Of a stretch of 44,710 nucleotides of DNA, positions 28,448-34,027 are shown in pieces. The notes below the pieces were generated by a model, which saw nothing but the letters and a program-made list of their open reading frames with translations, made no database searches and was not told the DNA's origin. Positions within the stretch are counted from its first letter, which is position 1. Each line of letters starts with the position of its first letter. Made by a program: the position numbers and the translations under genes. The DNA comes from Mycoplasmatota bacterium (lineage in GTDB: Bacteria > Bacillota_I > Bacilli_A > Izemoplasmatales > Hujiaoplasmataceae), in contig JAQIBJ010000086.1 of NCBI GenBank assembly GCA_027859085.1, positions 1 through 44,710 on the forward strand, in the 5' to 3' direction.

Positions 28448-29767
28448 TTAATAATTTCTATGGTTACTGAAAGTTGATGTATTTTTATTAAATAACAATT
28501 CAAAATCTCCAGGTTGTCCATGTCTGTTTTTCGCAACAATAAATTGCGTAATATTACGTCTACTTTCATCTAAAGTATCTTCTTCTTTAACATACAAAAA
28601 GACAATAATATCCGCATCCTGCTCAATTGAACCAGATTCTCTCAAGTCAGACATCATCGGTGTTTTATTTGTACGTTGTTCAAGATTTCTTGATAACTGT
28701 GAAAGAGCAACAACTGGAACTTTTAATTCCCTTGCCATCTCTTTTAATACACGAGAAATTTCCGAAACCTCTTGAACCCTGTTTCCTTTATTATGTTGTG
28801 AACCACTTAATAACTGTAAATAGTCAACAATCACTAAATCTAATTTATTGTTTTGTTTTAATTTACGACATTTACTTCTTAAATCAAGTACTTGAACCGT
28901 TCCAGAATCATCAAAATAAATATTAGATCCTTTTAGATTGTGAACACCTGTTTGTAGTTTTTCCCAATCTAATTGTTTTAAATCACCTTTTCTTAATCTT
29001 GTATTATCTACACCTGAGATACTTGATAACAAACGCATGACCAACTGTTCAACACCCATCTCTAAAGAGAAGAATGCAATATGTGGAGTCTTTGGTAACA
29101 ACCCAATATTAAGCGCCATGTTCAAAGCAAACGCAGTTTTACCCAAACCTGGTCTTGCGGCCACGATAAGTAAATCTGAAGGCTGTAAACCTAATGTAAA
29201 GCGGTTTAAGTCATTATATCCTGTATCCAAGCCACTAAGTTCATCAGAATTTTGTGCTTGCTCAGCAATTTTACCTAAAGTTGTCTCAGCTGCATCCGCA
29301 ATATTCACGAAATCAGTGCTTCGTCTATCTTTTGTAATATTAAAAATTTCCTTTTCAACGTGATCAATGAAATGTGGTGTATCTTCTACTGATCTAGATT
29401 CATTGATTAATGCATTGAAACTTTCTTGTAATTTTCTTAAAACTGATTTATCTTTAACAATATTTATATATTCCATTAAGTTTGCAGTTGAAGGCATCAC
29501 AGCAGATAGGTAAGCAATGTATTCCCTGCCACCGGCTTTTTCAAGAGCGTTTATATTTTCAAGAAAATTACTCACTGTAATCACATCAATAGAATTACCG
29601 TTTTCATGTAATTTTAACACAGCTTTATATATTTCTTGATGATTTGGATTATAAAAATCATCCATTTGTAATTTATCAGCAATCGTCTTTATTTCGCTTT
29701 CGCTAAAAAAGATGGCACCTAATACAGATTCTTCTGCTTCAAGACTATAAGGTGTAAGGTTCTCCAT
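28448..29767 (-). CDS. dnaB: Replicative DNA helicase
   Basis: DnaB (DnaC in Bacillus) is the hexameric 5'-3' helicase at the fork. The 439-residue protein has an N-terminal primase-interaction domain (PYSLEAEESVLGAIFFSESE, FYNPNHQEIY) and a RecA-type motor with Walker A AARPGLGKTAFALN near 200. FFSLEMG, DLVIVDYLQLL (Walker B), LSQLSRNLEQR and DLRESGSIEQDADI follow. It lies downstream of gdpP-rplI as in Bacillus (yybT-rplI-dnaC). Confidence 0.98.
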   Translation of the reverse strand: MENLTPYSLEAEESVLGAIFFSESEIKTIADKLQMDDFYNPNHQEIYKAVLKLHENGNSIDVITVSNFLENINALEKAGGREYIAYLSAVMPSTANLMEYINIVKDKSVLRKLQESFNALINESRSVEDTPHFIDHVEKEIFNITKDRRSTDFVNIADAAETTLGKIAEQAQNSDELSGLDTGYNDLNRFTLGLQPSDLLIVAARPGLGKTAFALNMALNIGLLPKTPHIAFFSLEMGVEQLVMRLLSSISGVDNTRLRKGDLKQLDWEKLQTGVHNLKGSNIYFDDSGTVQVLDLRSKCRKLKQNNKLDLVIVDYLQLLSGSQHNKGNRVQEVSEISRVLKEMARELKVPVVALSQLSRNLEQRTNKTPMMSDLRESGSIEQDADIIVFLYVKEEDTLDESRRNITQFIVAKNRHGQPGDFELLFNKNTSTFSNHRNY

Positions 29768-29778
29768 AAACTACTCCT

Positions 29779-30225
29779 TTATTCTTTTTCTAATACTTGT
29801 ACATCAATAGTTGCGACAATATCTTTATGTAATTTCACATCAATGTCAAAATTTCCTAAAGTATTGATTTTATCTTCTAAGTTTATTTTACGTTTATCTA
29901 CTGTAATACTATGTTGTTTTTTAAGTTCATCAGCTATTTGCTTAGTATTAATTGAACCAAATAATTTACCTGATTCTCCTAATTTAACATATAGTTTAAT
30001 TGGACTTTTTTCAATTTTTTCTTTAAGATCCAAAGCTTTTTTCTTTGCCTTGTTTTCTTTTTCTTTTAATTCTTGACGTTCATCTTCTAACGCTTCAATG
30101 TTTGCAGAATTCGCTTTAATTGCATTTTTTGAAGTTAACAAGTAATTTCCATAACCCGTTGCAACTTCAATCACATCACCTTTTTTACCTTTACCTTTAA
30201 CATCTTTAATTAAAATAACTTTCAT
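29779..30225 (-). CDS. rplI: Ribosomal protein L9, probable independent translation from an internal start
   Basis: Read alone from the ATG at 30225, the frame gives a 148-residue, full-length bL9. It has an N-terminal RNA-binding domain (MKVILIKDVKGKGKKGD, GYGNYLLTSKNAI), a long connecting helix rich in Glu/Lys, and a C-terminal domain (LFGSINTKQIADELKKQ). AGGAGG lies eight bases upstream, an optimal distance. Ribosomes need far more L9 than a membrane phosphodiesterase would provide, so internal initiation is likely. This is inference from the sequence. Confidence 0.7.
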   Translation of the reverse strand: MKVILIKDVKGKGKKGDVIEVATGYGNYLLTSKNAIKANSANIEALEDERQELKEKENKAKKKALDLKEKIEKSPIKLYVKLGESGKLFGSINTKQIADELKKQHSITVDKRKINLEDKINTLGNFDIDVKLHKDIVATIDVQVLEKE

Positions 30226-32217
30226 GGTTGATTCCTCCTTATACGTACTTTCTATAAGCTTTTCAATTTTTTCAACAATATCTTCAGTATTTATATTTTT
30301 TAATTGAGCAGCCGCATTATTCAAATGTCCGCCTCCGCCAAATTTTTCCATAATAACTGAAACATTAAAATCATTGATAGATCTCGCTGAAATACCAATG
30401 GTAGAACCATCAATTTTACCAACAGCGAAAGCTGCAATAATGTTGTCTATTTCTAATAGTTCATCAGCAGTTTTCGCCAACTGAACTCTATCAGTCATGT
30501 CTACTTCATCTAAAGCAGTAATCGCAAAACGCTCATGAATAATTCTTGCTTTGTTTACAAGGTTTGATTTTGTTTTAATATCATCTAACGACTCTCTTAA
30601 TATTAATCTTGCTTGAGAAGGATCTGCACCTTTTTGTCTTAATGAAGCTGCGGCTTCAAAAGTACGTGAACCAGTTCTATTTGAGAAGTTATTAGTATCA
30701 ATCATCATACCCGCAAGCATAATGGTTGCTTCAAACTTATGAATTGATACATCTTCTTTAAAGAAATCAATCAACTCTGTCACTAACTCAACAGAAGATG
30801 ATGCATAAGGTTCAACATAGTTCAGTAATAAATCAGGAATGGTATCTTCAATACGTCTATGATGGTCTATCACGATAACATTTTTTGTTTTTTCAACCAT
30901 TTCAGGTGTATTTGACTGATTTGGTGAATGATGATCCACAAGAATAAGCAATGTATCATTTTTAACTTTAGGCAATGCTTCTTCTGGTTCAATCACATAT
31001 TCAAGTAATTTTATATATTCATGTTCCAACATGTTCAATACTTTTTGACAGGTTTGATCAATGTCATCAAAATTGATGATAATTTTAGCTTTTTTCTTCT
31101 TCGCTAAGGCCATCTCTAATAAACCGATTGCTGCACCTAAAGCATCAATATCCGTTGTCTTATGTGGCATAATAAAAACTTCTTTAGCCGCATCAAAATA
31201 ATCACCTAAAGCTCTTGAATTTACTTTCGCAGTAATTTTACTGCGTTTTTCAACTGTATTCGTTTTTCCACCAAAAAATTTGGTAGGTTGATTTTTTAAA
31301 TTTACAACAACTTGATCGCCACCACGATCAATCGCGAGTTGAAGCGCATCTTCTGCAGCTTCACCGAGTTCCGCAATATTGGTATCAAAAGAAGCAATAC
31401 CCATTGATAGTGAAACTCTAATATCATTGTCTTCAGCTTTTTCAGAAACACGTTCTAATATAGAAAATCCTTCTTCCATAAATTCGTCAAGTTTTTTCCG
31501 ACTTGTCATCATCACCGCTTTGTCTACACGAAGTGTAATAAAATAGATATCATTGTCTTGACACCAGTGATTAATAATCCCTAATATTGATCCTTCTATA
31601 TTTGATTTGTTTTGATAATCCATATTGGCAGTTGCTTCTACAAAATTATCCAAGCTAATAATACCAATAACATTTTGGTTTTCATGATATTTTTTTTTGA
31701 TTTCTTCTCTTTCAGTCACTTCAAATAAGTAAACTGTTTTATTTTTAGGATAATGAATAATGTCATACTTTTTATCATATTGTTTAATTGAAAATTTACC
31801 AATTCTTTTTTCAACATTATCATACAACGTTTTGTTCAAAACATTTAATGGTCTATCGACTAAAACGTTTGAAAAATAATCTTTGGCAGCGTTATTAGCG
31901 AAATCAACATTAAATACATCATCGTAAATAACAATACCAACTGGTAAGTAATTTAAAGCAATATCTTCATTGTTTAATTTTCTTCGGTTTATAAGATTTG
32001 TTTCTCTAATTTTTGTTTCCAATTGTTTAATTCTTTTTGATCTTTGACTAGATAATAATTCAAACAATAAAATTCCAAAAAAGATAACTGAAATAAAAGT
32101 ATTAAAAATAATAAAATAGTCTAGATCTGAAGAAAAAAAGTAAACAAAACTTAATATAATTAATATGACATATGCAATTGTCAGGAAGATATGAAACTTA
32201 TTAAAGAAATTTCTCAT
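29779..32217 (-). CDS. gdpP-rplI: Fusion of cyclic-di-AMP phosphodiesterase GdpP and ribosomal protein L9
   Basis: This is a single 812-codon frame. Residues 1-664 are GdpP: two N-terminal membrane helices, a PAS-like region, a degenerate GGDEF domain, then the DHH phosphodiesterase. The DHH part has HKTTDIDALGAA (His-x3-Asp-x-Asp), IDHHRRIED and the DHHA1 motif FGGGGHLNNAA. Residues 665-812 are a complete L9, starting MKVILIKDVKGKGKKGD. In most Bacillota yybT/gdpP and rplI are separate adjacent genes. Here no stop codon separates them, yet a good internal ribosome site precedes the L9 ATG. It may yield fusion, free L9, or both. AGAGGAG precedes the first ATG. Confidence 0.93.
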   Translation of the reverse strand: MRNFFNKFHIFLTIAYVILIILSFVYFFSSDLDYFIIFNTFISVIFFGILLFELLSSQRSKRIKQLETKIRETNLINRRKLNNEDIALNYLPVGIVIYDDVFNVDFANNAAKDYFSNVLVDRPLNVLNKTLYDNVEKRIGKFSIKQYDKKYDIIHYPKNKTVYLFEVTEREEIKKKYHENQNVIGIISLDNFVEATANMDYQNKSNIEGSILGIINHWCQDNDIYFITLRVDKAVMMTSRKKLDEFMEEGFSILERVSEKAEDNDIRVSLSMGIASFDTNIAELGEAAEDALQLAIDRGGDQVVVNLKNQPTKFFGGKTNTVEKRSKITAKVNSRALGDYFDAAKEVFIMPHKTTDIDALGAAIGLLEMALAKKKKAKIIINFDDIDQTCQKVLNMLEHEYIKLLEYVIEPEEALPKVKNDTLLILVDHHSPNQSNTPEMVEKTKNVIVIDHHRRIEDTIPDLLLNYVEPYASSSVELVTELIDFFKEDVSIHKFEATIMLAGMMIDTNNFSNRTGSRTFEAAASLRQKGADPSQARLILRESLDDIKTKSNLVNKARIIHERFAITALDEVDMTDRVQLAKTADELLEIDNIIAAFAVGKIDGSTIGISARSINDFNVSVIMEKFGGGGHLNNAAAQLKNINTEDIVEKIEKLIESTYKEESTMKVILIKDVKGKGKKGDVIEVATGYGNYLLTSKNAIKANSANIEALEDERQELKEKENKAKKKALDLKEKIEKSPIKLYVKLGESGKLFGSINTKQIADELKKQHSITVDKRKINLEDKINTLGNFDIDVKLHKDIVATIDVQVLEKE
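30223..30239 (-). promoter_or_regulatory. Internal ribosome binding site for L9 inside gdpP-rplI
   Basis: Minus-strand AGGAGG (30234-30239) is eight bases before an ATG that matches the exact N-terminus of L9. In the fusion frame the same bases encode Lys-Glu-Glu-Ser-Thr. Confidence 0.8.
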
Positions 32218-32246
32218 AGTAATCTCCTCTATATAAATAATAAATA

Positions 32247-32334: not shown

Positions 32335-32343
32335 ATTATACCA
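32335..32343 (-). promoter_or_regulatory. Second upstream promoter of gdpP-rplI (extended -10)
   Basis: Minus-strand TGGTATAAT is a perfect extended -10 sequence just after the rpsR terminator. The -35 region is poor. It would give a longer leader (about 110 bases) that contains the proximal promoter. Confidence 0.55.
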
Positions 32344-32370
32344 CAAATGGGCCAATATGTTATTCATAAG

Positions 32371-32393
32371 AAAAAAGGCCCCTAAGAGCCTTT
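32371..32393 (-). terminator. Intrinsic terminator after rpsR
   Basis: Minus-strand AAAGGCTC and GGGCCTTT form an 8-pair stem around TTAG, followed by a T run. It ends the rpsF-ssb-rpsR transcript. Confidence 0.92.
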
Positions 32394-33496: not shown

Positions 33497-34027
33497 TTAT
33501 TCTGCAGTTCTATTAAATATTTCTATAATTTCATCTTCATAAGCAACAGTGCGAATGATTAACAATAAATTATCTCTTCTGTAGTATTCCATATCTTTAC
33601 CATCATAATAAGCTTGTAAAGAATCACTAACTGCCATTGCTTCTTCTAATTGTTCTTGAGAAGCAAATTCAATTATAATTGCACTTTTATTAATTTGAAC
33701 AGCATCCGGAACTGTTTGATAATAACCAATTAAATAAACGTTAAAGTTAAATGATGTAAATGTTTCTAAATCACTATAATTATCAATTAAATCAATTGTC
33801 ATGTTATCAACATGAGCAAAAATTTGTGAAGCAACTAACCCATCAGTTTCAGGTCTTTCTGGATCAAAGTTAACTGCAATAGGATTTTTATAGTCATATG
33901 CATGGTAACCTTCATCTTCAAAATTAGCTTGTACGGAATCAAATGTTCCCCCTGAACAAGCCGTTAAGGCACTAATCGAAAATACTAATGCAAAAATTAA
34001 TAAAACTTTCTTTATATTTCTCATCAT
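33497..34027 (-). CDS. Lipoprotein of unknown function
   Basis: The 176-residue protein has a clear type II signal peptide: basic MMRNIKK, hydrophobic VLLIFALVFSISA, and lipobox LTAC with the acylated Cys near residue 24. The mature part is a small, mostly acidic domain without a recognised family. It includes repeated Phe/Tyr-rich strands (FTSFNFNVYLIGYY) and a segment about bringing residues in or out (INKSAIIIEFASQEQLEEAM). It stands alone between a perfect-consensus promoter and a strong terminator, implying high constitutive expression. Either of two adjacent ATG codons may start it. Confidence 0.85.
   Translation of the reverse strand: MMRNIKKVLLIFALVFSISALTACSGGTFDSVQANFEDEGYHAYDYKNPIAVNFDPERPETDGLVASQIFAHVDNMTIDLIDNYSDLETFTSFNFNVYLIGYYQTVPDAVQINKSAIIIEFASQEQLEEAMAVSDSLQAYYDGKDMEYYRRDNLLLIIRTVAYEDEIIEIFNRTAE

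Follow-up and report, generated by a model that had tools for sequence, protein, structure and literature searches.

An in-frame gdpP-rplI fusion with a conserved internal start for ribosomal protein L9 in Izemoplasmatales and related families

The gdpP-rplI locus

We analysed a 44,710-nucleotide stretch of DNA (the window) from contig JAQIBJ010000086.1 of a Mycoplasmatota bacterium of the order Izemoplasmatales (GCA_027859085.1), whose genome is a fragmented MAG of 109 contigs that is 87% complete. A single frame of 812 codons and a stop on the reverse strand (29779-32217) encodes a complete GdpP of 664 residues followed by a complete bL9 of 148 residues (Table 1). Pfam searches of the 812-residue product recovered PAS_GdpP, GGDEF_GdpP, DHH and DHHA1, and then Ribosomal_L9_N and Ribosomal_L9_C, each above its curated cut-off, and TIGR00158 aligned over positions 1-147 of 148, also above its cut-off. 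This open frame and these domains bear out the claim of an earlier note on this DNA that gdpP is joined in frame to a full-length rplI without a stop. The note had also placed an AGGAGG eight bases ahead of the L9 ATG, which matches the letters exactly: the junction reads tatAAGGAGGaatcaaccATG, with the AGGAGG at 30239-30234, the ATG at 30225-30223 and a spacing of 8 nt, and is also written tatAAGGAGGaatcaaccATGAAAGTT, with the same AGGAGG and ATG. A sequencing or assembly error that deleted a stop codon might be suspected in a source MAG of 109 contigs, but can be dismissed with near certainty, as the same open frame occurs in CP076020.1 (Mycoplasmatota bacterium zrk2, a complete genome), the nearest named genome, which is 91% identical and fused too, and in about 140 other assemblies, complete genomes among them.

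Upstream of the fused gene on the same strand lie rpsF, ssb and rpsR, and downstream lie dnaB/dnaC, prfA and prmC. Just 5' of rpsF, a reverse-strand frame at 33497-34027 encodes a probable lipoprotein of 176 residues with LTACSGG near its N terminus, for which no Pfam match was found. Rfam and tRNA scans of the window returned no matches.

Table 1. Features of the gdpP-rplI locus in the window
Feature	Position	Strand	Evidence or remarks
dnaB/dnaC replicative helicase, next downstream gene	28448..29767	-	
gdpP-rplI fused ORF	29779..32217	-	812 codons and stop; ORF call, Pfam, NF011110 architecture
bL9 part, 148 aa, both domains complete	29782..30225	-	Pfam, TIGR00158, PDB L9 matches
Internal ATG, start of free L9	30223..30225	-	Start-type codon in 139/139 coupled junctions, lost in 3/5 decoupled junctions
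GdpP part, 664 aa: N-terminal helices, PAS, GGDEF, DHH, DHHA1	30226..32217	-	Pfam, alignment, AlphaFold
Short linker, last DHHA1 helix (644-658) to first L9 strand (664-669)	30226..30242	-	AlphaFold model
Internal Shine-Dalgarno AGGAGG	30234..30239	-	Inside the linker Lys-Glu-Glu codons
AGGAG ribosome site for full-length product	32224..32228	-	Read from sequence
Promoter-like site 5' of gdpP-rplI	32335..32363	-	Consensus match only
Terminator-like hairpin after rpsR, dividing rpsF-ssb-rpsR from gdpP-rplI	32374..32393	-	Sequence

The PAS-GGDEF-DHH-DHHA1 architecture is present in the window protein and in all 55 aligned fusions, in which the catalytic residues H352, D356, D358, D428, the DHH motif at 451-453 and D507 are invariant. 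The AlphaFold model of GdpP-L9 (pLDDT 86, pTM 0.42) has N-terminal helices at residues 2-27 and 32-89, candidate membrane segments in which the local sequence is hydrophobic, and a normal L9 fold about five residues from the last DHHA1 helix. In this predicted structure the domain folds are fixed, but the seating of L9 against GdpP is uncertain. The genome of the window harbors one diadenylate cyclase, and a PgpH-type 7TM-HD protein was not found in it or in twelve relatives, so that GdpP-L9 may be the sole membrane c-di-AMP hydrolase of known type here; hydrolysis of c-di-AMP by GdpP-L9 would fit both observations. In family f3 (G083-G089), a diadenylate cyclase (PF02457) was found in none of the seven genomes, and the aligned members of this family (fused loci L107, L167, L169 and L170) retain every GdpP catalytic residue; either these bacteria have another kind of cyclase or a source of c-di-AMP outside the cell, or the enzyme has a different substrate.

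Distribution and origin of the fusion

In eight families (f1, f2, f3, f7, f12, f16, f18 and f22), all intact loci are fused, and 144 distinct fused junctions were extracted. In the order of the window, 83 of the 90 genomes gave an L9 match, which lies within a long frame (about 576-885 residues) except at loci that appear to end with a contig and for a second match in G030. The short frames of G029 and G053 hold L9 at contig edges, and the short loci of G049 and G088 seem to do likewise. Several other fused named relatives are titled Izemoplasmatales. In a sample of the class, the fusion was found again in f7, f12, f16, f18 and f22, and a separate L9 of about 150-190 residues in f4-f6, f8-f11, f13-f15, f17, f19-f21 and f23-f26. 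Three genomes of the fused clade that are 84-97% complete (G081, G083 and G163) gave neither L9 nor GdpP-L9, by loss or because contigs are missing. The earlier note had proposed a survey of relatives and held that a stop between the two parts in every one of them would count against it; the relatives are instead fused, and both the fusion and the internal ribosome site (next section) are conserved among them.

The tree that we constructed of the DHH-DHHA1-L9 region has 98 rows, each genus and state being represented about once. The fused rows all fall on one side of a single branch, which corresponds to one change of state compared with 32 in shuffles. A single ancient origin without reversal is probably the history of the fusion, but since the support of this branch is 44 (not starred), it is the simplest reading of the tree rather than a proven one. 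Two rows that seemed to be unfused within the fused clade (L229 and L239) are actually the second, free rplI of fused genomes. The earlier note had explained the fusion by the loss of one stop codon. A recent origin of this kind is not supported, the fusion being order-wide and ancient on the tree, and an indel is as likely a mechanism as stop loss, since the two genes, which mostly overlap or abut where they are unfused, differ in frame at 83 of the 96 unfused loci.

Some unfused loci have arrangements of their own. In those of f10, f21 and f17 (e.g. L135, L141 and L304), gdpP overlaps rplI by 20-23 nt in another frame, and this fixed long overlap covers the ribosome site of rplI. In two loci of Lachnospiraceae (L069 and L080), gdpP and rplI share a frame and are parted only by a TAA or TAG immediately 5' of the L9 ATG, one point change from fusion.

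Summed over the fused rows, the branch length comes to 25.6 amino-acid changes per column, along which there was no reversal, and no stop was seen in the linker. With about 12 codons in the linker and stops arising from about 5% of non-synonymous changes, rough arithmetic predicts that an unconstrained linker would have acquired a stop repeatedly over this length.

A conserved internal ribosome site

We considered a fused junction without an adjacent second L9 as coupled (139 of the 144) and one with an adjacent free rplI as decoupled (the other five). The first L9 codon of the coupled junctions is always a start codon (ATG in 133, GTG in five and TTG in one), even though it encodes Met, Val or Leu, and L9 residue 1 follows the GGGGH motif at a distance of 38-41 in 136 of 138 cases. 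The energy of the duplex with the anti-Shine-Dalgarno (anti-SD) sequence, computed over nucleotides -18 to -4, averages -10.0 kcal/mol at the coupled L9 starts and is never weaker than -5.5 (n=139), compared with a mean of -1.4 kcal/mol at 2299 other in-frame ATGs of the same ORFs (Mann-Whitney p 3e-86) and of -6.2 kcal/mol in synonymous-codon resamples at the same places (z -21). As the pairing is stronger than in the synonymous resamples, the signal lies in the nucleotides, not only in the linker peptide. The linker peptide itself varies by family (KEE, QEG, GGD, EGE) and the SD persists; moreover, 53% of the Glu codons at the internal site are GAG, versus 19% elsewhere. Hence, the internal SD and start codon are conserved, with a signal of selection in both the synonymous resampling and the linker comparison, and the kept internal ribosome site of the earlier note, present in every coupled junction and above both controls, is confirmed. 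All eight relatives that were tested carry the matching anti-SD GGATCACCTCCTTTCT; no match was found in the fragmented genome of the window, from which the rRNA contig is probably missing.

No second L9 was found elsewhere in the window's genome (87% complete), many of the surveyed genomes being incomplete MAGs in which a second L9 might escape detection. In one coupled genome (G030), whose internal site is intact, there is a distant L9 on another contig with 33% identity to that of the window; the size of this genome (2.5 Mb) and its 6% contamination suggest that the contig is foreign.

Loss of the internal site beside a second rplI

A second, free rplI is located 15-70 nt downstream of the fused gene in G159 and G481 (f22/g86) and in G333, G339 and G504 (f7/g89). 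In a tree of L9 (with some long branches), both copies fall within their own family each time, indicating two independent tandem duplications. The SD of the fused copy is lost in all five decoupled genomes (dG -2.4 to +0.5) and the start codon of the fused L9 in three of them (AAG, AAG and ACT), and the free copies carry an SD of their own (-5.7 to -10.3). Intact internal sites are therefore found in 139/139 junctions without and 0/5 with an adjacent second L9 (Fisher p 2e-9, a value that ignores kinship among the junctions, the independent losses being two).

Loss beside a free rplI is the pattern expected of an internal site whose putative purpose is to supply free L9, and it indicates such a purpose. 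The main reading of the earlier note, free L9 from the internal start, thus gains support from both the 139/139 conserved sites and their loss where a free rplI adjoins. The fusion might instead be the only product, with all L9 attached to GdpP or cut from it by a protease. The frame, open throughout, would agree with this, as would the dispensability of L9 in B. subtilis and E. coli; but such an arrangement is very improbable, as it fails to account for the strong SD and start-type codon in every coupled junction, for the synonymous-codon signal and the use of GTG or TTG in place of ATG, and for the loss of the SD and start exactly where a free rplI adjoins.

Fate of the tethered L9 domain

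The frame of the fused L9 is still open in all five decoupled genomes. Between G159 and G481, dN/dS is 0.12 for the fused L9, 0.14 for the free copy and 0.15 for GdpP; between G339 and G504, the corresponding values are 0.32, 0.16 and 0.15, and comparisons with the distant G333 gave 0.57 and 0.91 for the fused L9. By these estimates, the decoupled fused L9 remains under constraint, which is strong in one lineage and relaxed in g89. We scored the conservation of L9 on 19 columns that are near-invariant among other L9 proteins. Coupled fusions have a mean of 0.6 changes at these positions, with a maximum of three, and the decoupled fused L9 has six to eight, including Gly24 and Gly90, versus one or two in the free copies.

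These patterns are best read as follows: the free product would hold the ribosomal residues in coupled genomes, and the tethered copy would be kept for a use that does not need them; the tethered domain is apparently retained for its own sake and not for ribosome binding. The earlier note had suggested that a membrane-tethered L9 could place ribosomes at the membrane, for which we found no positive evidence. Binding of the tethered L9 to ribosomes, by which GdpP or translation would be drawn to the membrane, would agree with the conserved positions and canonical predicted fold retained by the L9 domain of the window's lineage, but these residues are explained by the free product from the same codons, the demand for ribosomal L9 presumably far exceeds any plausible amount of GdpP, and the loss of near-invariant residues from the decoupled fused L9 counts against a general role of this domain in ribosome binding. 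We thus consider ribosome tethering improbable.

The domain might otherwise be a passenger, only free L9 and GdpP activity being of consequence and reversal of the accidental fusion being awkward. Such a neutral passenger is unlikely, if less so than ribosome tethering: there is no known role for the tethered domain, and duplication was followed in g89 by a partial relaxation of its constraint (dN/dS 0.32-0.91), but the linker acquired no stop over 25.6 amino-acid changes per column, in a place where the unfused sisters terminate harmlessly, and after duplication the fused L9 stayed open in five of five genomes, with the low ratio seen in G159/G481. We prefer, tentatively and at a little under even confidence, a tethered L9 fold with a role outside the ribosome, for example in the stability, assembly or regulation of the phosphodiesterase. 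In most of the clade the same codons would have to serve both this role and ribosomal L9, and two lineages would have escaped through duplication of rplI; their tethered copies would then have lost the ribosomal signature and not the fold. The most economical guess, in our view, is that the domain serves GdpP as a structural or regulatory part.

A probable two-product gene

Taken together, these results make it highly likely that gdpP-rplI is a two-product gene for a membrane GdpP-L9 and a free L9, fused once, with an internal start that is kept as the only source of ordinary L9 and decays after duplication of rplI. Translation from the start at 32217 would yield a membrane GdpP, the c-di-AMP phosphodiesterase, with L9 as its C-terminal domain, and initiation at the internal AGGAGG/ATG (30239-30223) would yield free L9 for the 50S subunit; that both are produced, in what amounts, and what the tethered domain does, we infer. 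The fusion would date to a single event in a common ancestor of the Izemoplasmatales and several sister families, a large clade that probably includes Acholeplasmataceae (f12, as we infer), and was then retained in every descendant examined. The internal start would have been retained as the cell's only source of ordinary L9; once rplI is duplicated, it would decay, and the fused L9 would drift from the ribosomal protein and stay part of GdpP. From sequence comparison we read the fusion and its spread, a conserved internal site that is lost on duplication, and purifying selection on the decoupled domain.

Relation to known systems and implications

The fusion already has a named entry in NCBIfam, NF011110 (PRK14538, putative bifunctional signaling protein/50S ribosomal protein L9), which has the same domain order as the window protein. 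Our match covers positions 54-835 of the 838 of this profile (E 7e-194) at 646 bits, below the curated 707, and the members above the cut-off fall inside the same fused clade. The family name is silent on the internal start, the free L9 and the duplications. The GdpP part resembles GdpP (YybT) of Bacillota (solved relatives 9n0l and 5xsi) in its PAS, GGDEF, DHH and DHHA1 domains, catalytic residues and helical N terminus; however, a normal GdpP ends after DHHA1, and its rplI is separate, usually overlapping or abutting and mostly in another frame. Likewise, the L9 part resembles bL9 (rplI; PDB 1div and 7qgu) in its full length, both domains and conserved positions, but its codons double as the 3' end of gdpP. 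A comparable case is Cas11b of an archaeal type I-B CRISPR system, where an internal in-frame start in one ORF gives a small C-terminal product beside a large protein (PMC11899642); those two products act together in one complex, whereas the small product of gdpP-rplI would be a core ribosomal protein and the large one a membrane signalling enzyme.

Within the literature that was searchable, we found no paper analysing a GdpP-L9 fusion and nothing usable on precedents (a review on internal starts, an IspH-S1 fusion), and the main text of an A. laidlawii proteome paper (PMC3139596) mentions no fusion. Within the same scope, what appears to be new is the conserved internal start, its decay on duplication of rplI and the tethered domain's separate fate.

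The gene links c-di-AMP turnover to a ribosomal protein, a link retained for a very long time in a large set of relatives of the wall-less bacteria. Since databases name one bifunctional protein, it is easy to miss the free L9 of these genomes, with consequences for the ribosome inventories and minimal-gene lists drawn up for mollicute relatives. Lineages with a duplicated rplI are a natural experiment that separates two roles of the same codons, and they make the role of a tethered ribosomal protein directly testable in a cultivable relative.
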